Shown here: piece after piece, positions 4,048 through 29,431 of the stretch | Layout of the letters: the number at the start of each line of letters is the position of its first letter | Position numbering within the stretch: position 1 is the first letter of the stretch | IMG/VR virus record: IMGVR_UViG_3300020183_000327 | Span: 1-30,301 of that record | DNA: 30,301 nucleotides | Origin: a virus | Strand: one strand, 5' to 3' | Translations under genes and position numbers: made by a program | The notes under the pieces: generated by a model | What the model was told of the DNA's origin: nothing | What the model saw: only the letters and a program-made list of their open reading frames with translations | The model's database searches: none

Positions 4048-6459
4048 TTAAAAACCTTTTGCTTTTCCTTTTCTTACCGAATCTTTTTTATCTTCTTTAT
4101 CTTTTATTTTAGTTTCAATATCAACATTATCTTCAGAATCACTTAACCAGTTATCATTTCCTCGTTTAGGTGTAGCAGTACCATCAAATCGTTTAGCTAA
4201 TGTATAGAAACGTCCATTTTTCTGTGGTAAATAATCAGTGAGCATATTAAACTGCAATGTAACGCCAATTTTCAATGGAACTTGCATCATAGTTGGGTCT
4301 TCTTCAATATTAATTTCCCACGGGGCATCCATTCCAAATGTATATGATACCTGCGTCAATGTTACTGGTTGTTGCACAAATAAATCTCCAATTGTAAGTC
4401 GCATCCATGGTGCAATCATTGCAATTGATTCTGGATCATACGTCGGTGTAGTATATCCAGCAAGTGCATTTAATTTTCGCCATATTGGTTTTACTTCATC
4501 TCGATCAGTTGCATATACATCAAATGATACACTAACATCTCGTGTAAATCCTGTATATGTATAATTTGGATCAGCCCGTCCGATCATATGTACTGGACTC
4601 CAGTTGGAGGTAAAACTATCATCAAAATTTGTTATATGAGCTCTAAATACGATGATATCGTCTGTTTCTGAATCATTTTGATCAAAATCATTTGCTAATA
4701 AGCCATTATGCAACTTTGGCCCTGTTAAATAAAATTTTATAAAATCTTGCGTTATTGATTGTTTATCAAATAGTTCTAGCGCGCGCTTAGGTTTCCATCG
4801 ATATGCTTCTTTAAGTGTTCGTTGTCCAAAATCAATAACAGATACTTTGTCTCCGCGAAATGGTATAATAACATCTTGCGGTGCTTTTGATGGACGCCAA
4901 TGTCCTTTTTGTAATTTTTGAGTTTTAAGTGTTCCGCCGCTTTTTTGTTTTTCGGATATTGTAACAGTTTTTGATGGTTCCCATGTTGTTGCTACATGGC
5001 TACGTATGGTAAAATCATTGCGAAATGCATCAGGATTATCATGATCACCCCATCCGTAACCAGTATTTCCAAAACCATCTAAATTAAACACACTATATGG
5101 ACCAACTGGTGTTACTGCAGCTGCGGCATACACTATTGATTTCCATGATTTTTGCATACCAAAACGCAACGATGCTGCTAAGCCATCGATGCGTCTACTA
5201 GTAAAATATGCAATTGACTGATCTGGTGTGGTAAATGTTGAATTAGTTTCTCCAAAATTATCTCCTTTTGGAAATGTAAATGTTGATCTAAAATCTGGAT
5301 ATTTGATATATTGACGTATTCCTCTTCGCGTCAATCGATCTTTAGCCAATGTTAAATATGCATTAGTAGAATCAAACATGCCTAATGCAGTTTGACCTAC
5401 TTGTGAAACTTGCGGAATGCCTGCTAATGAACCTATTGCTGACGCACCAAATCCTAATAAATTTGCAACAACACTTTTTGGTGTAATATTTGTATTGATG
5501 CCGATTGCTGGATCAACGCCGATCGTCGATGTATATGATGATAATACTATTGGATCTTTAAATTGTGATACAATTATTGTTTCTCCGGCAGGGTTTTGTA
5601 CTGCAACCCCAGGATTTACAGCTCCAAATCCCCACGTATTGTCAACCAACGTTGGATTTTTGGTAGATCCTGACAATAAAGCAAGTCCGTCTTGGTCGCC
5701 CCAATTATTTGCATTAAATGCATTTAGTATAAAATCATTGCTTGATGTATAATTAAATGTTGGTTCAGTACCTAATACAATCGTTGGAGAAAATTGGCCT
5801 GCTCCAACCGTTGGATTAGGAATAAAATCATTGCTTGATGTATAATTAAATGTTGGTTCAGTACCTAATACAATCGTTGGAGAAAATTGGCCTGCTCCAA
5901 CCGTTGGATTAGGAATAAAATCATTGCTTGATGTATAATTAAATGTTGGTTCAGTACCTAATACAATCGTTGGAGAAAATTGGCCTGCTCCAACCGTTGG
6001 ATTAGGAATAAAATCATTGCTTGATGTATAATTAAATGTATCATACTGTCCCAATGTTAGTGATTGTATAAATTGTTGCATTGTTGGCAACATAGTATTG
6101 GGTGTTATAATATCATTAGTTGTTACATAGTTAAATGTATCATATTGTCCTAATATTATGGGCTGTGAAAATTGTCCAGTAGCAGCAATAGTAGGATTTG
6201 TATATAAAGTATTTGGTAAAATATCATACGTATTAAATTGTCCTAATACTAATGGCGTTATAAATTGTGCTGGTGCTGCGATTGTAGTGTTTGAATATGT
6301 ATTGTCTGGTAATATGTTATACGTATTAATTTGTCCTAAAACAATTGGTTTAGAAAATTGACTTATAGCTCCAACCGTAGGATTCGTTAATATTGCATTA
6401 GGCAATAAATCATATGGGGCATTAAATTGCGAACCTGCTTGTGTGGTCGGGTTAATCAT
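4048..6459 (-). CDS. Large baseplate protein with N-terminal tandem repeats; C-terminus resembles tail-tube initiator proteins
   Basis: This is an 803-residue protein from the ATG at 6459, four bases after the tape-measure stop; a TTG at 6498 would overlap that gene and is less likely. The first 250 residues hold eight units of about 30 residues with the core Q-F-x-x-P-I-V-L-G-Q-x-x-T-x-N, the last three identical; a ninth weaker copy (SQFKDPIVLSSYTS) lies further on. The C-terminal third contains W-S-P-V-H-M-I-G-R-A-D-P, then G-F-T-R-D-V-S-V-S-F-D-V, then an R-K-L-N-x-L-A-G-Y segment. Those patterns are typical of gp48/gp54-like tube initiators and related baseplate proteins. The tail is Lys-rich and charged. 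Its place just after the tape measure suits a protein at the tube-baseplate junction. The repeats have no T4 counterpart I know of. Confidence 0.68.
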   Translation of the reverse strand: MINPTTQAGSQFNAPYDLLPNAILTNPTVGAISQFSKPIVLGQINTYNILPDNTYSNTTIAAPAQFITPLVLGQFNTYDILPNTLYTNPTIAATGQFSQPIILGQYDTFNYVTTNDIITPNTMLPTMQQFIQSLTLGQYDTFNYTSSNDFIPNPTVGAGQFSPTIVLGTEPTFNYTSSNDFIPNPTVGAGQFSPTIVLGTEPTFNYTSSNDFIPNPTVGAGQFSPTIVLGTEPTFNYTSSNDFILNAFNANNWGDQDGLALLSGSTKNPTLVDNTWGFGAVNPGVAVQNPAGETIIVSQFKDPIVLSSYTSTIGVDPAIGINTNITPKSVVANLLGFGASAIGSLAGIPQVSQVGQTALGMFDSTNAYLTLAKDRLTRRGIRQYIKYPDFRSTFTFPKGDNFGETNSTFTTPDQSIAYFTSRRIDGLAASLRFGMQKSWKSIVYAAAAVTPVGPYSVFNLDGFGNTGYGWGDHDNPDAFRNDFTIRSHVATTWEPSKTVTISEKQKSGGTLKTQKLQKGHWRPSKAPQDVIIPFRGDKVSVIDFGQRTLKEAYRWKPKRALELFDKQSITQDFIKFYLTGPKLHNGLLANDFDQNDSETDDIIVFRAHITNFDDSFTSNWSPVHMIGRADPNYTYTGFTRDVSVSFDVYATDRDEVKPIWRKLNALAGYTTPTYDPESIAMIAPWMRLTIGDLFVQQPVTLTQVSYTFGMDAPWEINIEEDPTMMQVPLKIGVTLQFNMLTDYLPQKNGRFYTLAKRFDGTATPKRGNDNWLSDSEDNVDIETKIKDKEDKKDSVRKGKAKGF
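5731..6039 (-). repeat. Exact 93-bp tandem repeat, three full copies plus 30 bases
   Basis: The unit beginning aaaatcattgcttgatg starts at 5731, 5824, 5917 and 6010. The first three units look identical over all 93 bases, and the fourth diverges after about 30. Each unit encodes 31 residues (N-Y-T-S-S-N-D-F-I-P-N-P-T-V-G, then Q-F-S-P-T-I-V-L-G-T). Older, diverged copies continue upstream in the gene to about 6420. Perfect identity points to recent duplication or ongoing homogenisation. Confidence 0.95.
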
Positions 6460-6463
6460 GTTG

Positions 6464-8161
6464 TTATCCGTAATATGAATTTGATAAGCCTCGTCCAAAA
6501 ACTGGATCTGCTTTTAATTCTCGTGTTTGATTGTTAATTGCAGCTACAACAGCTGCTGCAAATTGCATAACATCGCCTCCGCCTTTACCTCCAAATAGAT
6601 TAGTTCCGCCCATAACTACATTATTATTATTTTGCATAACATCGCCTCCGCCTTTACCTCCAAATAGATTAGTTCCGCCGAAGACGCTGTCGTCGCGATG
6701 TAGATTAAAGGTACCTTCGGGCGTTATTAACATTCTGCCGCCTCCTGGGCCAGAATAGAAGTCGGCCGCCTCCTCTGTTCCTACAACTAATGTTGGCATT
6801 GGATTGGTTTTGTTTATTGGCTTACCGCCAACTAATAATCCGCCAACGCCCCCGGGGGCGCTCGCAACAGCGGTGCCGACCTTGCCAGTAAATCTCACTG
6901 ATTGCGCGCCTTGGGCGGCGGTAACCGTGGTGGAATCAATTAAGCTCGTGAGAAAATCACCTATGGTATTTACACCTCCTACGCGACCTTGCGATCCGGA
7001 ATTCATCAATGCGGAATAATCTAAACCTTGAAGTTTAATACCTCTCGTAGTCAATATATCCATTGCATCTGCAACTTTTTCATCCGTCGTACGCATATCA
7101 TTTGCCTTCAAGACATCAGCAATTTCATCCTGTGTTCCACCTAAGGTAGCTAGTTTAGCTGCTAATGCATCGCCTTCAAGTCCCATCAATTTGCCGCCCG
7201 GATCAAGTTTTTTTAAGATATCTTGCTTTTTTATCATTTTTGCTATAGTAGCTTCATCTGTTTGTAAAAGACTTGCCATTTGTTGACGAGCAAATAAATT
7301 ATTTTTTAATGTTTCGCCTTCTTGTGAAATGATTTTATTCATCAACATGGCTTGTTTATTTGCATCTCCTTGAATAGTAGCAGCTCGATATGCATTTGTC
7401 AAACTTTCTCCAGATACTTCATCAACTAATCTTCGACCAGATAATAATTGATATTCCATTTCTTGTCCGATGCTAGATTCGATGTTTAATAAATTTTGTC
7501 CGGTGGTATTTAATTGAGCCATATTTATACCAAGCTGTTTAGATTTTATAACAGCTAATTCTAATGAACCAGGCATTTTGCCATAATGTAATGAAATATC
7601 TGCAGTTTGACTTGCTATATCTGATATCATTTCTTGTGTGACTTCGATATCGACTACTTGCTCTTCAATATAATTAGATATACTAATGTGATCTGCTAAA
7701 GTTCTTTCTAAACTTTTTCCACTTTGCGATGCCATTTCTATGTATTTATTTGCAATATCATCACTTAATCGCAAATTCATTCTCAATGCTTTAGATGTTT
7801 TTATTAGATCTTGGCCGTACATGTTTCCGGCCGCTCGCGTTGATAAATCAGCTATTTTCGAAAAAGGCCCAATTAGATTTTTAAGACCTTTTGTAACTGC
7901 TTGAAGTGCTTCGCCTCCCATTCCAAGTCGCTCAGCAATATCATCCATATTTTTACCAAGCGTAGCCACTTGATCGATAGTTAGTCCCATATTTGTTTGA
8001 AACTGACTAAAACGAGATTCTAATATGGTTAAATCTTTAAATACGGTATCAAATGTGGTTAATTGGTCTTGTAATCCAGCCGTAATGCTCTGCATTGCAC
8101 GTTGTTTACCTGCATTGTTCGCAGAACCAATCATTGCATTTATATCGTCAATTAATCCCAT
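6464..8161 (-). CDS. Tail tape measure protein (gp29-like), short
   Basis: This is a 565-residue, largely helical protein placed between the tail chaperone and the baseplate genes, the standard place for a tape measure. Its length is close to T4 gp29 (590 residues), implying a tail near T4 length. The first 420 residues are Ala/Leu/Lys/Asp-rich helices without motifs. The C-terminus changes character: Gly/Pro-rich, with a G-P-G-G-G-R-M-L-I-T-P-E-G-T-F-N-L-H-R-D-D-S-V segment and two copies of G-G-T-N-L-F-G-G-K-G-G-G-D-V-M-Q, which resembles the conserved end of many phage tape measures. Bases about 6560-6950, encoding this end, are clearly richer in G+C than the surroundings. The ATG at 8161 has the promoter motif 17 bases upstream but only a weak Shine-Dalgarno. 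Confidence 0.8.
   Translation of the reverse strand: MGLIDDINAMIGSANNAGKQRAMQSITAGLQDQLTTFDTVFKDLTILESRFSQFQTNMGLTIDQVATLGKNMDDIAERLGMGGEALQAVTKGLKNLIGPFSKIADLSTRAAGNMYGQDLIKTSKALRMNLRLSDDIANKYIEMASQSGKSLERTLADHISISNYIEEQVVDIEVTQEMISDIASQTADISLHYGKMPGSLELAVIKSKQLGINMAQLNTTGQNLLNIESSIGQEMEYQLLSGRRLVDEVSGESLTNAYRAATIQGDANKQAMLMNKIISQEGETLKNNLFARQQMASLLQTDEATIAKMIKKQDILKKLDPGGKLMGLEGDALAAKLATLGGTQDEIADVLKANDMRTTDEKVADAMDILTTRGIKLQGLDYSALMNSGSQGRVGGVNTIGDFLTSLIDSTTVTAAQGAQSVRFTGKVGTAVASAPGGVGGLLVGGKPINKTNPMPTLVVGTEEAADFYSGPGGGRMLITPEGTFNLHRDDSVFGGTNLFGGKGGGDVMQNNNNVVMGGTNLFGGKGGGDVMQFAAAVVAAINNQTRELKADPVFGRGLSNSYYG
6563..6679 (-). repeat. 48-bp direct repeat, period 69, in the tape-measure C-terminus
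   Basis: The stretch from ttgcataacatcgcctccgc to ttccgcc occurs at 6563-6610 and again at 6632-6679. It encodes two copies of G-G-T-N-L-F-G-G-K-G-G-G-D-V-M-Q separated by an Asn/Val linker. The identity at DNA level suggests a recent duplication. Confidence 0.9.
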
Positions 8162-13744: not shown

Positions 13745-15706
13745 TTATATTACTACCCAATCATTAGATGGTCTAAATTTCATTGTCCAATATGCGGAGT
13801 TATTAGTGTTTTGGTAATATGCATGACCTAAAATTCTAACATACTGCCCTGCAGTTGTAGGCACTATTATTGACATTGTATTTCCTGCACTTTCTTTAAT
13901 GTATATTGGTGATCCATTGTCAATATATTGAACTTGTGGCGTATCAGTATATGAACCATCATTCACTGTAATTGATCCTTCTAAAATAACTTTAGGGCTA
14001 ACACCAGTTTCTGCACATATTCCTAAAAGTCTAGAGCAATTATCAGTTCCCTGAGTAACTTGATACCACATACCATCTGTTTTTTCTAAATATACTAGAT
14101 CAAATTGGGCTACATTATTATCTAATATTCCTTCTATTACTTCTCCTTCATAATTAAAATTACCTATTGTTGGTACATCTGAAAATGCCTCTTGGGTACC
14201 TAGATCAATGAATCTTTTTAAGTATGTGTTTGTTTCTATTTTATAGTTAAGAGCAAATGCATCCCAATTAAAAACTGCAGTGTTTGATGAATCTATTAAG
14301 TCTCTACTGTTCCAATTAATACTATCAGTGTTTACACCGTCATATAATATTCTACTGTTAGCATTTACACTACTAACACCTGATATATCATTAATATTTC
14401 TTTTATTATCATTTACTTCAATTGCAGTAACGTAATTTGCTCCATCATATGTTTGAACACTAAATGATCCAGTTACGCCTAATGAGCCTGTAATCTCCGT
14501 ACTTCCCGTTACTTGTACAGTATTACCATGGGCAACTAGCAGGTTGCTTCGATTACTAACATCTGCACCGTTACCTACAACAAATGAAGAAGGATCGGAT
14601 ATAGGTACATTGTATTGACCTGTTACATGTTGGTATGAGCCTGAGGCTATTGTGCCTAATCCTTCTGCATGAGATGCATATCCTACGGCTTGAGTCTCAT
14701 AACCTTCTGCGTGTGAATAATATCCTATGGCTTGAGTATCATAACCTTCTGCGTGTGAATAATATCCTACGGCTTGAGTACCTTCACCTTCAGCATGAGA
14801 CGCATCACCTACGGCTTGAGTACCCCTTCCTTCTGCATGAGATGCATATCCTACGGCTTGAGTAGATCGACCTTCTGCATGAGATGCATATCCTACGGCT
14901 TGAGTAAGGACACCTTCTGCGTGAGATACATATCCTACGGCTTGAGTATTGTCACCTTCAGCATGAGACGCAACACCTATGGCGTGAGTACTTGCACCTT
15001 CTGCGTGTGAATAATCTCCTGGTATAGTTTGATCACCACCCCAGTTATTTATCCCTTGTCCTAAATCTCCAACATAAGCAGTAGTTGTAGTTACCGATGT
15101 ATCATATAGCTCTATTATTGTATTAAAATTCAGGAGATTAGAATCAAAGTATGATTGGCTAATGATGAATATAGCTCCGCCGTAATTGGAATCAAATGGT
15201 TCATCATACAAATACAATTGATTGTCTGTTCCAAAATTACCAGCTATATCACCATAAGAACTTGGCAGTGTTATAATACCCGATGCTACTGATTGTGCAT
15301 AGTATGCGTTTTGTGTTCCTGTCTTAGTATTGCCGCCTTCAGCGTGAGAAAATGAACCTACGGCTTGAGTATCATAACCTTCAGCATGAGACGCACCACC
15401 TACGGCTTGAGTAGTGTCACCTTCTGCATGTGAATAATCACCTACGGCTTGAGTAGAGTTACCTTCTGCATGAGAATATGGGCCTGAAGCTAATACAGAA
15501 TTGCCGTTAGCTAATGATCCAGTTACGCCTAATGAACCTGTAATTTCTGCAGAACCCGTATAAGGGAATGCAGGTGTACTTGGAGCATATGAAGCGCTTG
15601 TAGCAAATGAAGCAGTTCCAAGTAACGATCCGGTTATGCTTGGAGCATATAATGAATTTAATGCAGCATCAGAACCTGATACTATGATCTTTTTCCAGTT
15701 TGGCAT
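13745..15706 (-). CDS. Fibre/adhesin with YadA-head-type repeats
   Basis: This is a 653-residue protein. The start is the ATG at 15706, with AAAGGAAC ahead of it; an in-frame GTG at 15742 has no such leader. The N-terminus M-P-N-W-K-K-I-I-V-S-G-S is shared with the upstream fibre gene. Two blocks of 14-residue repeats (core S-H-A-E-G-x-x-T-Q-A-V-G-x-x) follow: four copies at about residues 78-130 and nine at about 232-365. This is the YadA-head (PF05658) repeat of trimeric autotransporter adhesins, which forms a left-handed beta-roll. Between the blocks is a 100-residue beta-rich insert. After them come ITGSLGVTGS repeats and a C-terminal domain with G-S-I-T-V-N-D-G-S-Y. It is a likely trimeric fibre or receptor-binding protein. 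The x-x pairs vary between copies while the core does not. Confidence 0.85.
   Translation of the reverse strand: MPNWKKIIVSGSDAALNSLYAPSITGSLLGTASFATSASYAPSTPAFPYTGSAEITGSLGVTGSLANGNSVLASGPYSHAEGNSTQAVGDYSHAEGDTTQAVGGASHAEGYDTQAVGSFSHAEGGNTKTGTQNAYYAQSVASGIITLPSSYGDIAGNFGTDNQLYLYDEPFDSNYGGAIFIISQSYFDSNLLNFNTIIELYDTSVTTTTAYVGDLGQGINNWGGDQTIPGDYSHAEGASTHAIGVASHAEGDNTQAVGYVSHAEGVLTQAVGYASHAEGRSTQAVGYASHAEGRGTQAVGDASHAEGEGTQAVGYYSHAEGYDTQAIGYYSHAEGYETQAVGYASHAEGLGTIASGSYQHVTGQYNVPISDPSSFVVGNGADVSNRSNLLVAHGNTVQVTGSTEITGSLGVTGSFSVQTYDGANYVTAIEVNDNKRNINDISGVSSVNANSRILYDGVNTDSINWNSRDLIDSSNTAVFNWDAFALNYKIETNTYLKRFIDLGTQEAFSDVPTIGNFNYEGEVIEGILDNNVAQFDLVYLEKTDGMWYQVTQGTDNCSRLLGICAETGVSPKVILEGSITVNDGSYTDTPQVQYIDNGSPIYIKESAGNTMSIIVPTTAGQYVRILGHAYYQNTNNSAYWTMKFRPSNDWVVI
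14650..15020 (-). repeat. 42-bp adhesin repeats, nine units
   Basis: A 42-base unit with a conserved core (on the plus strand near ttctgcatgagatgcatatcctacggcttgagt) is repeated nine times, encoding S-H-A-E-G-x-x-T-Q-A-V-G-x-x. Copies differ mainly at the codons for the two x-x pairs. Confidence 0.9.
15335..15482 (-). repeat. 42-bp adhesin repeats, four units
   Basis: This is a second block of the same 42-base unit, four copies, separated from the first by about 310 bases coding for an unrelated beta-rich insert. Confidence 0.88.
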
Positions 15707-15796
15707 ACGTGTTCCTTTTGTGCTGTGGTTGGTTACATACACTTATGCCGTGCGTGTGCCCACTTCCTTGCGGCCTACAACATTTATAATAAATAT
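15707..15796 (-). promoter_or_regulatory. Candidate late promoter and long GC-rich leader of the adhesin gene
   Basis: The motif ATATTTATTATAAAT is at 15782-15796, overlapping the stop of the small upstream gene. The ATG is 82 bases further on, far longer than most leaders here. Bases about 15740-15777 are markedly GC-rich for this genome. AAAGGAAC precedes the ATG. A structured leader is possible. Confidence 0.5.
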
Positions 15797-21489: not shown

Positions 21490-23157
21490 TTAAAGTGAAT
21501 TAAGACCATGAACATATACTTTTCCGTAGAATTCAGGACGAACTACTTTCTTCGCGTAACGTGTCATGACACCTTTACGTGGAGTAAAGTTCACTGGATC
21601 GTATACAAGCGGAGTCATAATCAATGGAATATAAGGAGCAAATACAGCACCTGTTTCGAGGAACTGTGCACCTCTGAAGCCCATAAGGATTACATTCTCA
21701 GTCATGTATGGGTTTTTGTATACGGTATAACGGTTGTTGATAGCACCAATTTTTTGAACGCCAGCAGCAAATTCCATTTTGTTACCATCTGTATCAGCAG
21801 CAAATCCTGGGATAGACTCAAGGATAGTTGCAACTGCAGGAGATGTTACAAGGAAGTTAGCACCACCACGCAATGTTTTTTGGTGAATTTTATTAGATAC
21901 TTTTTGAAGTTTGGTACCCAAAGTTTGGAACCATCCACCTTGTGTATTGTAATATCCATCGCCGGCCGCAGTAGCTGCACCAGCACCTGATTGTGTAAAT
22001 CCTGAACCATTCCAAAAGTTGTTGTTCAATGCAGACCAATACTCAGTTGTAGGAGCTGCAGCAATCAACATATCAAGAATTTCAAGATCGATTTCCATTG
22101 ATACATACTCAGACAACATTGAAGTCAATTCAGCTTCGGCGTCAATTGAGTGGTATGCGTTCAAATCTTGAGCAAATTCAGGTGTCCATACTGCTTTCAA
22201 CTTACGTGTTTTAGCAACAATTGGATCTGATTGCATTTCAAGATTAATTTCTGGAATGCTAATATCTGCATTGTACCCATTATCATACGTAGTTCTATCT
22301 TCAAAATCACCTCTAGAAACATCGGTTGGTTGTTTGCTATATTGTAATTTTAAGTTTGTACCAGCAATTGCAAGTTGAATTGCAGTTGCTTGTGCAGTGG
22401 TTACAACAAATGATGCAGTAAAGTTACTGTCAATAGTTGAAAATGCTTGTACTGGAATAATTTCAGTAGCAGCTGCGCCTGAAACAAATGTCCAAGAACG
22501 AACTGAATATAAATCAGCATCGGTTGGAACATTTACGGTTACTTTTTTGTAGCTTGATAATGATGCAGAATAAACGCTATCATAATTAACTACGCCAGCA
22601 TCGGTAATTGCACCAGCACCAGAACCTGTATTAGCAGATGTACTAGTTAATGCAGATGATGTTACTGAATTAATTGAATATCCAAAACGACCTGCACCAT
22701 AAAGACCGCCATCTGGATCAGAACTTGTAGTGGTAACACCAAACATTGAGTCATCAGCATTTGGAGAACCAAATGGATCGCCTGTTCTGTTTAAGTTATC
22801 ATCATCGAATCCTGGTTGAGCTGTACCATATTTAAAGTCTAGATAAAATACAAGACCCGATGGCAAGTTCATTGGTTGAACTGAAACGAATTCTTTTGCA
22901 GCAAATTCAGCAAAGATACGACGTACCAATGGAAGTGCTACACCAGCCCATTCTTCAGATCCTTGAGCGACACCTGTTTGTGAAGCTTCTTTTACTAATT
23001 GACGTGCTTGGTTTTCAAGCAATTGTGCCATTCCGGCTCTTTCGGTTTCGGTACGAAGGCCTTCTAAAAGTCCGGTACGTTCCCATTTGTTTACGGTTGC
23101 AATTGCCGCAGCTCGTTGTGAACGATCTGGACTTTGCAATAAATTAGAAATACTCAT
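21490..23157 (-). CDS. Major capsid protein (gp23-like)
   Basis: This is a 555-residue protein (T4 gp23 is 521). The N-terminal propiece keeps gp23 hallmarks: K-W-E-R-T-G-L-L-E-G-L at about 24-34 and L-L-E-N-Q-A-R-Q-L at 46-54. These are followed by E-E-W-A-G-V-A-L-P-L-V-R-R-I-F-A-E and V-S-V-Q-P-M-N-L-P-S-G-L-V-F-Y at about 68-110, the best-conserved part of the family. Residues about 145-260 are Ser/Thr/Gly-rich and probably form an inserted outer domain. The C-terminus has the P-L-V-Y-D-P-V-N-F-T-P-R-K-G segment typical of gp23. The gp21-like protease probably removes the propiece during head maturation. It follows the scaffold gene in T4 order, with an AAGGA leader, and ends at a strong terminator. 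Confidence 0.96.
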   Translation of the reverse strand: MSISNLLQSPDRSQRAAAIATVNKWERTGLLEGLRTETERAGMAQLLENQARQLVKEASQTGVAQGSEEWAGVALPLVRRIFAEFAAKEFVSVQPMNLPSGLVFYLDFKYGTAQPGFDDDNLNRTGDPFGSPNADDSMFGVTTTSSDPDGGLYGAGRFGYSINSVTSSALTSTSANTGSGAGAITDAGVVNYDSVYSASLSSYKKVTVNVPTDADLYSVRSWTFVSGAAATEIIPVQAFSTIDSNFTASFVVTTAQATAIQLAIAGTNLKLQYSKQPTDVSRGDFEDRTTYDNGYNADISIPEINLEMQSDPIVAKTRKLKAVWTPEFAQDLNAYHSIDAEAELTSMLSEYVSMEIDLEILDMLIAAAPTTEYWSALNNNFWNGSGFTQSGAGAATAAGDGYYNTQGGWFQTLGTKLQKVSNKIHQKTLRGGANFLVTSPAVATILESIPGFAADTDGNKMEFAAGVQKIGAINNRYTVYKNPYMTENVILMGFRGAQFLETGAVFAPYIPLIMTPLVYDPVNFTPRKGVMTRYAKKVVRPEFYGKVYVHGLNSL

Positions 23158-23185: not shown

Positions 23186-24259
23186 TTACAATAATCCTGC
23201 TAATTTTTTCCATCTGTTAGCCATTTCAAAACCTTCAGAAAGAATTTGTGTTGTTTGTTTACTTGGTGCAGTTGTCGTAGTAGCTTTTGATGCATATGAC
23301 TCTTTAACTACACGTTTTTTGGTTGGACGTTTAAAACTTTCAGCCAATGTAGCAAAAACTAATTTTGCTTCACGCGTATTTGCAGCTCTGTCAAAGTTCT
23401 CAATTACTTTCATTTTTTGAGATTCTGACAATTCAAAATTACGGAACAATTTGTTTGTGTAAAGCAATTTAGCGTTAAGAAGATTTACTTCGTTGATAAC
23501 TGATTGAAGATGTTTAACTGTGCGATATGCTTCTGTAAGTTCTTCATTTTTTGCATCTAATTCTGCTTCCATTGCTTCAAGTACTTCTGAATCTTCAGTT
23601 GCTGTTGGCTTTTCTGCTCCCATGTCACCTTCTTCACGTAAGATTGCTTCAATGATTTCATCAATATCAGATGTAACATTGGTGTCTGCGTCCATCGTAT
23701 CTTTCATACCTGCTTTATCACTAAATTCATCTTCAAAATACATACCTTCTTCTATATCAGTTGGCATCATTTCTTCTTCCGCTCCCATCGCGGCATCTTC
23801 TTCTAATTCACGAATGATTTCTGAAATGTCTAACTCCGTGCCTGACATATCCGCCCCTTCATTGTATTCAGCTGCCATTTCTTCTTCTGAAGCTGGTTCT
23901 TCTTCTGCAGGTAATTCTTCATCTTCTCCATCTCCTGCCATTCCAACTTGAAAATTATAATCCTTACCACCAACTGATGCTGCTAAGGTATCATCTGTCC
24001 AATTGAAATCGTCGCCCATCTCTGCTCCTGCTTTTACGCCCATCTCTGCTCCTGCTTCTGCTCCTGCTTCTGCTCCTGCTTCCATTGCGTCTGCTTCATC
24101 TTCTTCGCCCATTAATTCGGCATTCAATTTTTCAGCAAACACTTTATGGATTCTTGGAGCAAATGCTTCTTGCAAAGCTAATTTTGCGTTTGCTAATGCA
24201 GTTTCTTTAACTGTTTTAGCATCCGCGATTGCTTGTTTAAGCAAATCTGATTTTGCCAT
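23186..24259 (-). CDS. Prohead scaffold / core protein (gp22-like)
   Basis: This is a 357-residue, very acidic, helical protein directly upstream of the capsid gene, where T4 has gp22. Residues about 50-80 are a low-complexity run of A-G-A-E units. The middle (residues about 110-215) is dominated by Glu, Asp, Ala and Met. Residues about 230-330 form a long charged helix (L-E-A-M-E-A-E-L-D-A-K-N-E-E-L). The C-terminus R-W-K-K-L-A-G-L-L is basic-hydrophobic, the kind of end that binds capsid. Such proteins fill the prohead and are then cut by the gp21 protease. The ATG at 24259 has a good AGGAG. The preceding leader, over 100 bases, is the longest in the window. Confidence 0.85.
   Translation of the reverse strand: MAKSDLLKQAIADAKTVKETALANAKLALQEAFAPRIHKVFAEKLNAELMGEEDEADAMEAGAEAGAEAGAEMGVKAGAEMGDDFNWTDDTLAASVGGKDYNFQVGMAGDGEDEELPAEEEPASEEEMAAEYNEGADMSGTELDISEIIRELEEDAAMGAEEEMMPTDIEEGMYFEDEFSDKAGMKDTMDADTNVTSDIDEIIEAILREEGDMGAEKPTATEDSEVLEAMEAELDAKNEELTEAYRTVKHLQSVINEVNLLNAKLLYTNKLFRNFELSESQKMKVIENFDRAANTREAKLVFATLAESFKRPTKKRVVKESYASKATTTTAPSKQTTQILSEGFEMANRWKKLAGLL
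24018..24085 (-). repeat. Low-complexity 12-bp repeat in the scaffold gene
   Basis: On the plus strand tctgctcctgct recurs in tandem with one interruption (acgccc), giving the A-G-A-E repeat run in the protein. This kind of sequence can expand or contract by slippage. Confidence 0.85.
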
Positions 24260-24374
24260 TTTTTTCTCCTAAATTTGTTTTTTGGAAATAAGATTATTTG
24301 AAATCTTAATAGAATTTAACTTTTTATGTATAAACGCTATATAAAGAATGAATAGCGTATTCTACAATAAATAT
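24260..24374 (-). promoter_or_regulatory. Late promoter motif and structured leader of the scaffold-capsid message
   Basis: The motif ATATTTATTGTAGAA is at 24360-24374, 107 bases before the scaffold ATG. The leader contains two perfect inverted repeats: ACGCTAT/ATAGCGT (24352-24358 with 24334-24340) and AAGATT/AATCTT (24302-24307 with 24290-24295). AGGAG lies near the ATG. No other leader here is this long or this paired. Confidence 0.6.
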
Positions 24375-24394: not shown

Positions 24395-24424
24395 TAAAAA
24401 AGTCCTAACTTTTTGCTAGGACTT
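24395..24424 (-). terminator. Intrinsic terminator after the bS21 gene
   Basis: On the coding strand: AAGTCCTA, nine-base loop, TAGGACTT, then a T-run and ACTGTT. It is an eight-pair perfect stem about 20 bases past the bS21 stop, separating bS21 from the scaffold unit. Confidence 0.9.
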
Positions 24425-24445: not shown

Positions 24446-24685
24446 TTAAAATTTGTTTTGCAAATCTTGCATATGTTGACGATATCTTGCTTTTGATATG
24501 TCATTTCTGCGTTTAACACTTGGTTTAGTAAATGTTCGATTTTCTTTAACATACTCTAATACACCCGAATCTTTTACTTTTCGTTTCCAAGTTTTTAGTG
24601 CAAATCCTAAATCTTGATTTACTACGTTAACGGCTACAGAATTGCCTGGTACGATCATTTGATGTTGTTTTTGTTTTTTATTCAT
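24446..24685 (-). CDS. rpsU: Phage-encoded ribosomal protein bS21
   Basis: This is a 79-residue basic protein. From residue 26 it follows bS21 along its length: L-G-F-A-L-K-T-W-K-R-K-V-K-D-S-G-V-L at 26-43, then F-T-K-P-S-V-K-R-R at 52-60 and a basic helix. bS21 binds late to the small subunit beside the 3' end of 16S rRNA and the anti-Shine-Dalgarno. The F-x-K-P-S-V segment and Tyr68, which aligns by my recall with Tyr54 of Flavobacterium bS21, point to a Bacteroidota-type protein. Residues 1-15 are an extra N-terminal extension. It lies within the head genes, 9 bases behind an unknown gene and before a terminator. There is no clear Shine-Dalgarno. bS21 genes are known from other phages and metagenomic viruses; the effect on the host is inference. 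Confidence 0.9.
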   Translation of the reverse strand: MNKKQKQHQMIVPGNSVAVNVVNQDLGFALKTWKRKVKDSGVLEYVKENRTFTKPSVKRRNDISKARYRQHMQDLQNKF

Positions 24686-24694
24686 ATATAACTA

Positions 24695-25174
24695 TTAAAT
24701 TTTCTCTTGTGGTTTTTTTGGAGCTTGTTGTCTTACGTTAAATCTAAAATGTTTTAGTTCTGGTTTCTGTGCTAAATAACCTTGTAACTTTTGTGATTCT
24801 AGGGCCGGGTCTTGACCTAATCTAAAATAAAAATATCCAATTTTGCCCGTTGGTGAAATTGTTTTTTTAATTACCGTAAAACCTTTGCGTTCTGCCCATT
24901 CTTGAATTTCAGATGCAACTTGCTCCGATGTAACAGGATCTCGAAGAACGTATTCAACGCCGCCGCGATAATCAGTTAAATTATTTACCAATTGTGCTTC
25001 ATCTAAATCTGATTCTCCCAATGCCTTAGCTATTCCAACATATGCATCTTTTGCTTTATTTAAATTTTCAACATCTTCATCAGAAAATCTCGGCAAATCT
25101 TCTTTAGCCGCCGGCATGCTTTGTTCGTTCAACCCAAAGAAGTCTCGATATAATTTTTTAAATTTGCTCATCAT
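24695..25174 (-). CDS. Unknown protein in the head module
   Basis: This is a 159-residue protein. It has two adjacent Met codons at the start, and the second (25171) has AGGTG at better spacing. The N-terminus (F-K-K-L-Y-R-D-F-F-G-L) is a short amphipathic helix. Residues about 65-130 look like an alpha/beta domain: G-G-V-E-Y-V-L-R-D, E-W-A-E-R-K-G-F-T-V-I-K-K-T, then G-Y-F-Y-F-R-L-G. The end is Pro/Lys/Gln-rich and probably disordered. No catalytic motif is visible. It sits between a coiled-coil gene and bS21 in the protease-scaffold interval, so a core or minor head role is possible. A regulatory role with bS21 cannot be excluded; neither is shown. Confidence 0.68.
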   Translation of the reverse strand: MMSKFKKLYRDFFGLNEQSMPAAKEDLPRFSDEDVENLNKAKDAYVGIAKALGESDLDEAQLVNNLTDYRGGVEYVLRDPVTSEQVASEIQEWAERKGFTVIKKTISPTGKIGYFYFRLGQDPALESQKLQGYLAQKPELKHFRFNVRQQAPKKPQEKI

Positions 25175-25212: not shown

Positions 25213-25590
25213 TTAACCAACATCAAAAAAACGATTTAAATGATTACCAATATTTTCATATGCAATTGACATACGTTGTTGTGCTTCTTTGAGTTGTGTT
25301 GCAGCTGCAGAAAATTCTTTATAATCTTCAAGCATTCTTTTATTTTCTTTTTTAAGTGCCAAATTTGAAAACCAATCATCTCCTTCGGTCATGATTCTGT
25401 CTGCACCATCGACGATTTGTTTAACGCGTTCTACAATTTCTTCAATATCGCCTTTACCGTATACCGAATCTCCCATTGCAGAAAAGTTTTTTACAGCTTC
25501 TTTAAATGCTTGTTTTTCTTGTACCGACATTGGTGCAGGTTGATCTTGCATTATAGTTTCTAAAATAAATTTTAAATTGGGCGTTCTCAT
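25213..25590 (-). CDS. Unknown helical protein, possible prohead core component
   Basis: This is a 125-residue, mostly helical protein whose ATG overlaps the protease stop by one base (TAATG), with AGGA eight bases before it, so it is translationally coupled. Residues about 20-55 and 75-115 are charged helices (E-K-Q-A-F-K-E-A-V-K-N-F, N-K-R-M-L-E-D-Y-K-E-F). No membrane segment, signal peptide or motif is visible. In T4 the small core proteins gp67 and gp68 lie near gene 21. A similar role here is a guess based on position, size and helicity. Its acidic-helical character also fits a core protein. Confidence 0.68.
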   Translation of the reverse strand: MRTPNLKFILETIMQDQPAPMSVQEKQAFKEAVKNFSAMGDSVYGKGDIEEIVERVKQIVDGADRIMTEGDDWFSNLALKKENKRMLEDYKEFSAAATQLKEAQQRMSIAYENIGNHLNRFFDVG

Positions 25591-26222
25591 TATATTATCC
25601 TACATTTACCATCTTCACACAAAATCGATGTAATGATGTCGTTTACTTTATTATATTTATTTGGTTGTGCCATTTTATTAACTGATTCATTCATGTGCGT
25701 AGGCCGCATAAAAGCCCCATGGGTTGACGGATTAGATACAAAGTCCCAACATATTAATTCAAAATCTTCTTGTACTTCAACCGTACCTTCATTTCGTAGT
25801 TCTTTTACTGAACCCAATCCGCGGGAAGAAATACCTAAAGTAATTCCTGCTCTAAATAGTTCTTTAAGAATTTTGCCAGATGGCGTATCTAAAATTTGTA
25901 CTGCTCCATGTAAATCATCACCTTTCCACCAAATTTTTAAAACATTGTGAGAAACATTGTTTAAGTTTACTACTGATGATTCTGGGTGATCCAATTCACC
26001 TAAAGCTCTATGTTGATCAATATATTCCATTTGATAACGTTGACATTCTTTTTCTAAAATACGTTTTGGATATATACGACCATTTTGATTTTTAGCTCCT
26101 GCTCGTTGCAAAACTCCTTGTACAACAAAACCACCAGGTATTCCATATGCAGCGCCACTTGATTCGGTTAATGAACCAACGGGTTTAAATGGCATATATT
26201 CTACAATTAGTTGTTTTGACAT
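25590..26222 (-). CDS. Prohead maturation protease (gp21-like)
   Basis: This is a 210-residue serine protease of the T4 gp21 type, which shares a fold with herpesvirus assemblin. The His motif G-E-L-D-H-P has His79, and I-S-S-R-G-L-G-S at 131-138 carries the Ser nucleophile (Ser132 or Ser133). T4 gp21 uses His85 and Ser140, so spacing agrees. N-G-R-I-Y-P at 47-52 is another family signature. The enzyme is expected to cut scaffold and capsid propieces inside the prohead. AGGAG precedes the ATG at 26222, which is one base past the previous stop; its stop overlaps the next start. The gene order portal, protease, scaffold, capsid matches T4. Confidence 0.93.
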   Translation of the reverse strand: MSKQLIVEYMPFKPVGSLTESSGAAYGIPGGFVVQGVLQRAGAKNQNGRIYPKRILEKECQRYQMEYIDQHRALGELDHPESSVVNLNNVSHNVLKIWWKGDDLHGAVQILDTPSGKILKELFRAGITLGISSRGLGSVKELRNEGTVEVQEDFELICWDFVSNPSTHGAFMRPTHMNESVNKMAQPNKYNKVNDIITSILCEDGKCRII

Positions 26223-27595: not shown

Positions 27596-29431
27596 TTATA
27601 AAATATTATTTTCATCTAACATCGTACCTTCATCAGATTGTTGTTGATTTTTATTTTTTAATGATTCAGTAATAATATTAGATGACTTTGATTTCTTAAG
27701 ATATCGTAAAATACTGTGTGATTCTGCTGCAATTGGTTTAACGGATCTTTCTGCTCTAGGATCTGGTTGAAATGTTGATTTTTGATTTTCAGGTCTAAAT
27801 GCTTGATCAATTGTTTTATTGCCCATTAGGTCCCAACCAAATTCATTTTTATGTTGACCAAACTTAATTCCTTCTTTTGGACGGCCGCCTTTGTCTTTTT
27901 CTTCAACTTCATCGGATGACATATGAATTGATGCTAAATCATGTGGCGTTCCAAATGATACTCCCGTAATTGCTGGATCATTTCCTTCTTGTTCGATTTG
28001 ATTTTGACGGAATCGTAATTTAAGATCTTCAATTACATCCGTACGTTGTTGCAACCATTGATCTTCGGACATATTAAAAATATATTCGTATATAAATTTG
28101 TCAGAAACTAATTTACTATCTCGCATTGCTGTTGCTAATGTCATTTTTTCGGTCATTAACGCAACTTTTTGCTGATCGTAAATAATTGACGGTGCAGTTA
28201 ATTCTAATTCAAATCCAATTAAATCTTCGCCTTCAAATCCCTGTGCATATAAATGTACAATTGCAATTTTATATAATTCTGACATAGCAATTTTTTGGAT
28301 GCGTTCAATAGTTCTAGCAAATCGAATATCCATTGATGCTAATGTAGTTTTTCCTTCTACGGCTTCTTCAAATCCTAAAAAAGCTTTTGGAATTCGTAGA
28401 GCGGACATCATTTTATGCTTAATATAATTGATATCATCGATCCCTGTAAATGTCATTCCTGGTAATGTATCAATTGCAGTAGATGATTGTCCTCCTCGTA
28501 CAGGTAAATAATAATCTTCTAACATGTTAGCAAGATTAAATTTTAAATTATAATTTCCTGTATTTGGATCTACATGTGGAATTTTTTTCATTTTTACAAT
28601 GATTTGTTCCATAAATGAATCAACTTCATTTGGCGGAATATTACCAATATCAATTTTAAAAATTCGTTTTTCTGGTGCTCGCATAATACGATGTATTAAC
28701 ATTGCATCTTCTAACATCATAAGTTTTTGAAATTCTTGTCGTGCCCCTTCTAACATTGATTTACCATATGGCAAAAAATTAGAATCTGATAACATTCGGA
28801 AATGTGCAATTTCAAAAACATCGTATGTTGCTTGTTGATTTGCAATATTTTTAAACTGAATTTTATATTCTCCAGTTACTTCATCATATTCTTCCCAACG
28901 TTCCATTTCATAACTAGAAAACGGCCTTACATTAATAATACCAATTTCTTCAGCAATATCCATTTTGAGGAAAAAATCGCCATATTTTACCATGTTTCTA
29001 ATCCATGGCCATAAATTAAATTCTATGTTTAAAACATCATAGAATAAATTATAAAGTATTTTTTGAATTCTAGTGTTACTAGTTTTTATTGTTAATATAT
29101 CTCCAAATTGATCTGCTAATGTAGATTCATCTGCATAAATATCTAATGCCGAACTAATAATAGGATCGCGGTCCATCATTTCATAATCAGCATAAAGTTG
29201 CATACGATTCTGATGCATATAGTAGTTAGAATCATATCCACCCATACCGCCGACGCGATGTTTATTAGCACCATGCAGTCTAGTATATCTATCTGCAACT
29301 TTTGATTGATTTAAATTTCCACGAGATTGTAATCGATTAGTATCAACAACTTTTAATCGATCTTTACCGTACGCCCGAACAATAACGTTCGTAGCAAAGA
29401 GATTTTGTAATCGTTTTCTTAATGTAGGCAT
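27596..29431 (-). CDS. Portal protein (gp20-like)
   Basis: This is a 611-residue protein (T4 gp20 is 524). Residues about 60-110 include M-D-R-D-P-I-I-S-S-A-L-D-I-Y-A-D-E-S, the hallmark of T4-type portals. Later come F-L-P-Y-G-K-S-M-L-E-G-A-R, then R-I-M-R-A-P-E-K-R-I-F and the I-P-K-A-F-L-G segment ahead of L-A-S-M-D-I-R-F-A-R-T-I-E-R. The portal is a dodecameric ring at one head vertex through which the terminase packs DNA. The last 100 residues are polar, Gln/Ser/Lys-rich and longer than in T4, probably flexible. It has a promoter motif 18 bases ahead of the ATG but no Shine-Dalgarno. It lies between terminase and the core-type genes. Confidence 0.95.
   Translation of the reverse strand: MPTLRKRLQNLFATNVIVRAYGKDRLKVVDTNRLQSRGNLNQSKVADRYTRLHGANKHRVGGMGGYDSNYYMHQNRMQLYADYEMMDRDPIISSALDIYADESTLADQFGDILTIKTSNTRIQKILYNLFYDVLNIEFNLWPWIRNMVKYGDFFLKMDIAEEIGIINVRPFSSYEMERWEEYDEVTGEYKIQFKNIANQQATYDVFEIAHFRMLSDSNFLPYGKSMLEGARQEFQKLMMLEDAMLIHRIMRAPEKRIFKIDIGNIPPNEVDSFMEQIIVKMKKIPHVDPNTGNYNLKFNLANMLEDYYLPVRGGQSSTAIDTLPGMTFTGIDDINYIKHKMMSALRIPKAFLGFEEAVEGKTTLASMDIRFARTIERIQKIAMSELYKIAIVHLYAQGFEGEDLIGFELELTAPSIIYDQQKVALMTEKMTLATAMRDSKLVSDKFIYEYIFNMSEDQWLQQRTDVIEDLKLRFRQNQIEQEGNDPAITGVSFGTPHDLASIHMSSDEVEEKDKGGRPKEGIKFGQHKNEFGWDLMGNKTIDQAFRPENQKSTFQPDPRAERSVKPIAAESHSILRYLKKSKSSNIITESLKNKNQQQSDEGTMLDENNIL

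Follow-up and report, generated by a model that had tools for sequence, protein, structure and literature searches.

A divergent, N-terminally extended bS21 accompanies Shine-Dalgarno-led late genes in a lineage of T4-like phages

The stretch of viral DNA analysed here (30,301 nt; hereafter the window) encodes a divergent ribosomal protein bS21 within a T4-like head gene cluster whose late genes are led by Shine-Dalgarno (SD) sequences. Judging by sequence comparison with relatives, the clade of this bS21 and its N-terminal extension, more than the residue equivalent to Tyr54 of Flavobacterium johnsoniae bS21, are associated with SD-led late genes. The leader of bS21 itself lacks an SD, early genes of relatives are SD-poor, and so are relatives without this bS21. 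Such a two-stage translation programme—an early/late split in SD use tied to this bS21 variant—is apparently unreported. As a tentative reading, which falls just short of an even balance, we propose a virus-driven switch of initiation mode: early genes and bS21 do without an SD, and the extended bS21 would make SD-blind host ribosomes SD-reading for late genes.

The bS21 gene occupies positions 24446-24685 on the minus strand, starts with ATG and encodes 79 amino acids. Its product matches Pfam Ribosomal_S21 (PF01165; E=5.2e-12, 45.7 bits at a curated cut-off of 27) and PHROG 21469, ‘ribosomal protein S21’, and the closest solved structure is bS21 of the F. johnsoniae 30S subunit (7jil; E=1.5e-5). 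Since the two proteins align without gaps, F52-x-K54-P55-S56-V57 represents the FxKPSV segment (FTKPSV at 24515-24532, minus strand, aligned to FIKPSV of F. johnsoniae) and Tyr68 (codon at 24482-24484, minus strand; Tyr or Phe across this major capsid protein (MCP) clade) equals Tyr54, as the initial annotation had held. The phage form shares the KPSV segment, the Tyr at the anti-SD contact and an ungapped core with the F. johnsoniae protein (7JIL), but differs by an N-terminal extension and by belonging to a separate viral clade. The extension covers about codons 1-20 (MNKKQKQHQ..VPGN..AVNV; 24626-24685, minus strand) and is not present in short cellular bS21. An AlphaFold model of the protein (pLDDT 89.5) folds the tail into a helix at residues 3-10, this block having a pLDDT of about 82-88. 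Foldseek matches to the model were weak (best E 0.13, TM about 0.4), the top eleven all coming from small ribosomal subunits (nine of mitochondria, one of a chloroplast and one bacterial, 30S chain U). Codons 2-9 had a pN/pS of 0.00 (pS 0.38) among 12 close relatives, a value to be read with the N-terminal motif having been one of six patterns used to retrieve the window lineage; tails related to the KKQKQH-type extension also occurred in loci fetched via the MCP.

The neighbours of bS21 comprise, by profile, a T4-type prohead protease, a gp23 capsid protein, a portal and PhoH and, by position, a putative scaffold, in agreement with the annotated location between protease block and scaffold. 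The single-strand order portal-283-158-protease-125-159-bS21-scaffold-MCP recurred in 80/80 relatives fetched from IMG/VR, as far as their contigs reach. On the minus strand of the window lie the gp20-like portal (27596-29431; PF07230, E=5.9e-63) with an SD-less leader (SD in 0/15 of the lineage), the prohead protease (Peptidase_S77; 25590-26222; PF03420, E=4.6e-33) behind an AGGAG SD (82% SD-led in the lineage), an acidic, 357-aa putative scaffold assigned from position and composition (23186-24259) with an AGGAG SD in its leader (24260-24284; 93%), and the gp23-like MCP (21490-23157; PF07068, E=1.1e-74) behind an AAGGA SD (89%). Directly upstream of bS21 is the gene for a 159-aa protein without Pfam or PHROG match (24695-25174, minus strand), syntenic in relatives and found beside this type of bS21; as it nearly abuts bS21, the two may be linked in function. 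After bS21 follows an intrinsic-terminator-like hairpin with a 10-pair stem and a T run (24400-24424, minus strand); the region holds 4 terminator-like hairpins versus 3.0 in shuffles, and comparable ones were seen in 11/55 relatives. A late-promoter-like octamer, ATATTTAT (24367-24374, minus strand), precedes scaffold and MCP; the octamer is strongly enriched upstream of genes, and TATTTATA or ATATTTAT lay downstream of bS21 in 44/55 relatives. Scanning the head cluster for E. coli-type promoters returned 34 sites versus 38 expected. Elsewhere in the window, the tail region encodes an adhesin-like protein in which the HAEG(x)TQAVG(x)xS motif recurs many times (13745-15742) and an 816-aa protein (4048-6498) with three near-identical tandem repeats (FNYTSSNDFIPNPTVGAGQFSPTIVLGTEPT) at about 5700-6200.

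The initial annotation considered both this placement and the idea of a bS21 swap favouring phage messages to be new, a claim that prior work overturns. Chen et al. 2022 (PMC9723584) had found the bS21 of Bacteroidetes phages in a cluster with genes for terminase, portal, protease and MCP, described a conserved aromatic residue at position 54 as well as high late expression along with structural genes, and proposed a ribosome substitution favouring phage transcripts. Their freshwater phages (clades a-e) resemble the window phage in a T4-like head cluster that includes terL, portal, protease and MCP, in the aromatic residue at position 54 and in the proposed ribosome swap, but their bS21 lies on the opposite strand and is closest to host bS21. 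The loci with this arrangement (L543-L561) carry a short bS21 and are SD-poor, whereas the window bS21 is extended, shares the strand of its neighbours (as in the 80 relatives) and stands amid SD-led genes. Protein family and genomic setting are both familiar; it is the variant that is distinct.

With respect to translation signals, the strong SD leaders that had been pointed out are well above expectation: 17/29 window leaders contain an SD core (2.5 expected), the mean energy of pairing to the 16S tail being -3.46 kcal/mol as compared to -1.48 kcal/mol in shuffles (p=3.7e-5). This exceeds the chance level of SD-blind Bacteroidota phages, as four Cellulophaga and Flavobacterium phages showed an SD use of 2-8%; T4 reached 56%, HTVC008M 49% and S-PM2 25%. 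Further relatives, gathered by a capsid protein search blind to bS21, were scored together with the first 80 loci, and loci were counted as bS21-free where at least 3.5 kb upstream of the MCP was present. SD leaders made up 47.4% (9.8% expected) in 129 non-redundant loci with bS21 and 11.5% (5.0% expected) in 52 loci without it. Broken down by group, the proportion was 50.5% in the window lineage (10.7% expected), 50.7% in loci with other aromatic bS21 and 44.8% with non-aromatic forms. In the subclade of L322, L317 and L324, bS21 was not detected and 7% of leaders had an SD. Among relatives without bS21, the putative scaffold leader alone was often SD-like (48%, 2% expected), most other genes being near chance.

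On the MCP tree, bS21 switches between present and absent only five times, which leaves a link that is strong by rows and weak by independent events; with so few changes, testing bS21 and SD use by independent pairs had no power (median p 0.5). There are exceptions to the association. LR756508 and L374 carry bS21 and no SD, G442 carries bS21 and is SD-poor, and the fragment L409 is SD-led with no bS21 seen. Phages with a short, host-like bS21 are likewise SD-poor (22/259 in L541-L564, which include the opposite-strand loci of the Chen layout, and 31/391). Given LR756508, L374 and these host-like forms, we rejected the presence of bS21 alone as an explanation of SD use. LR756508 (L084) and L374 have Met or Arg at position 54 and almost no SD leaders across the head region; LR756508 also has none of the tested early promoter motifs. 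L428, SD-led with no bS21 near the MCP, was dropped as an exception because bS21 is found elsewhere on its contig: on this 252-kb sequence (G426), which has SD-led genes, bS21 sits at 211157-211315, far from the head cluster, and the slot is hence not fixed across all lineages.

In a tree that was only roughly resolved, owing to 63 columns and just three sequences from other phyla, the bS21 proteins of the window lineage (clade A), clade B and clade C1 formed a single viral clade (96/88) beside, and not inside, the cellular Bacteroidota clade (98/81), with weak support for the branch joining the two (86/13). The designation ‘Bacteroidota-type’ therefore applies to the residues but not to the tree. 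The bS21 of the C1-like locus L316 fell outside the viral clade. The median number of residues before the core-helix column was 31 in clade A, 34 in B and 34 in C1; host-like viral forms had 13 and Mel-like forms 25. Tyr68 as the cause of SD use was rejected, since clade C1 shows this late SD pattern with Arg at the Tyr54 position, and phages of the Chen type are SD-poor despite their Tyr.

The bS21 leader of the window (24686-24710, minus strand) lacks an SD, pairs at -0.1 kcal/mol (rank 26/29) and overlaps the end of the upstream gene, whose stop (24695) lies 9 nt before the ATG. No bS21 leader had an SD in the window lineage (0/58), clade B (0/11) or clade C1 (0/14; 0/83 in total); portal and terL leaders are likewise SD-less, and MCP and scaffold leaders in clades A and B are about 90% SD-led. 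In Mel-like phages, a clade using SD early and late, 12/13 bS21 leaders carry one. The phage is in this a mirror image of Flavobacteriales, where rpsU is the one gene that bears the strong SD (McNutt et al. 2023, PMC9976891), whereas in the phage bS21 is SD-less among SD-led genes. Bacteroidota genome loci had an SD in 32/72 rpsU leaders and 27/441 leaders of other genes. The genome search used Bacteroidota sequences as its query and is therefore biased to that phylum. The Saprospiraceae MAG DT_111 (G016; L432, L433) holds two different cellular bS21 genes. An SD-less leader is what a gene needed before such a switch should look like. In most relatives the bS21 ATG lies 9-11 nt past the upstream stop, so translational coupling could also account for the absent SD.

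Two elements are enriched upstream of genes, an early promoter (TTG-N20-TAnnTT) and the late octamer TATTTATA. As the window contains late genes only, the evidence for an early/late split comes from relatives (G001, G002 and others), for which we counted the first genes behind either promoter on long contigs, with heuristic gene starts and promoter classes, and with G003 left out of pools as the same phage as G002. SD leaders amounted to 15/79 early versus 62/115 late genes in the window lineage (p=8e-7), 6/47 versus 9/19 in clade B plus L398, and 1/45 versus 20/37 in sister clade C1 (G437 and G439). The split held at 5′UTRs of at least 20 nt (early 8/63, late 30/48), and structural homologues in the window lineage had an SD in 66/118 cases. 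Five contigs without bS21 showed 9/135 early and 0/82 late. No comparable split was seen in T4 (early/middle 56%, late 71%), HTVC008M (38%, 54% and 58% by region) or S-PM2 (27%, 17%, 9%). The part of the literature covered yielded no published study of SD sequences in such phage genes; in the portions covered, neither Chen et al. 2022 (PMC9723584) nor McNutt et al. 2023 (PMC9976891) analyses them.

The host of the window phage is probably a member of the Bacteroidota. Relatives carry the promoter signature described above, and the nearest isolates by MCP are Flavobacterium phage immuto (54.5%), whose genome lacks bS21 anywhere, and Microcystis phage Mel-JY01 (54.6%). A search of the MCP against 395 Bacteroidota genomes for prophages or MAG contigs gave no match and, run with no positive control, is uninformative on the host. 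Mel-JY01 (PP395634; L082/L184-L193) was deposited as a Microcystis elabens phage; its upstream regions hold 22 Bacteroidota-type TTG-N19-21-TAnnTTTG promoters versus 0.5 expected, and its true host may therefore be a Bacteroidota companion in the culture. Its RpsU shares the protease-scaffold slot and strand with the window, but has Lys at position 54, lacks the KKQKQH tail and, like the early genes of that phage, is SD-led.

These observations suggest a sequence of events in which a T4-like phage with a probable Bacteroidota host, encoding the divergent, extended bS21, would at first meet ribosomes that hide their anti-SD, its early genes and bS21 being built without an SD. The phage protein would then take the place of host bS21 and free the anti-SD, or steady SD-anti-SD pairing, and the altered ribosomes would turn to late messages with an SD, which encode protease, scaffold, capsid and tail proteins. 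We give even odds to a mechanism in which unmodified, SD-blind ribosomes make the phage bS21, take it up and thereby expose their anti-SD to late messages. The earlier suggestion that a phage bS21 could shift anti-SD access toward phage messages fits the late-only SD leaders, the SD-less bS21 and the SD-poor, bS21-free relatives. The bS21 of pelagiphage HTVC008M was shown to enter E. coli ribosomes (Mizuno et al. 2019, PMC6375957). Replacement of bS21 is discussed there and by McNutt et al. (PMC9976891), in whose experiments SD-led translation in F. johnsoniae rose 3- to 5-fold when bS21 was truncated or carried Y54A. Counting against an opening of the anti-SD, the window lineage retains Tyr/Phe at the residue thought to hide it.

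Alternatively, the hosts’ ribosomes might already read SD sequences, with the phage bS21 needed only as a supply of the 30S protein added last, at a time of heavy late translation. We consider this unlikely, if the best of the alternatives. It would suit the Mel-like clade and G438, which are SD-led early and late (22/41 and 30/46), G438 having TTGAC/TATAAT-type promoters, and also HTVC008M, which encodes a bS21, as does the window phage, but uses SD throughout and has the gene by replication and Hsp20 genes, outside the head cluster. It sits poorly with the window lineage, clade B, G437 and G439, where early genes are SD-poor, bS21 is SD-less and late genes are SD-led, a split that T4 and HTVC008M lack. 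The early promoters, moreover, are like those of Flavobacterium phage immuto, and its TTG-N20-TA(T/C)nTT element occurs both in bS21-free contigs and in the majority of these phages with bS21, which makes it hard to explain the pattern by a change of host phylum alone.

More doubtful is that another late phage factor opens the anti-SD, for instance by taking host bS21 away or by targeting bS18, bS6 or the 16S tail, with phage bS21 only keeping the altered ribosomes working. SD messages are favoured by ribosomes without bS21, and McNutt et al. (PMC9976891) suggest host bS21 as a possible phage target; the retained Tyr/Phe and the 159-aa gene directly upstream of bS21 would also accord with such a factor. 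Yet SD use tracks the clade of bS21 itself, and a bS18 gene was absent from the eight records checked. Least probable is the published model without an SD component, in which phage bS21 mimics that of the host and leaves the anti-SD concealed, phage mRNA being preferred owing to the divergent N-terminal part: Tyr68 is kept and the N-terminal region is divergent (Chen et al. 2022, PMC9723584), but the model gives no account of late-only SD leaders and SD-poor relatives.

The preferred reading, a bS21-driven switch of initiation mode, draws on the early/late SD split and its tie to one bS21 clade, and predicts that the phage bS21 makes SD-blind ribosomes read SD messages, something that the SD reporters already available for F. 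johnsoniae could test. If true, it would constitute a viral ribosome-remodelling switch and a natural tool for studies of anti-SD sequestration, and it bears on why so many aquatic phages carry bS21.
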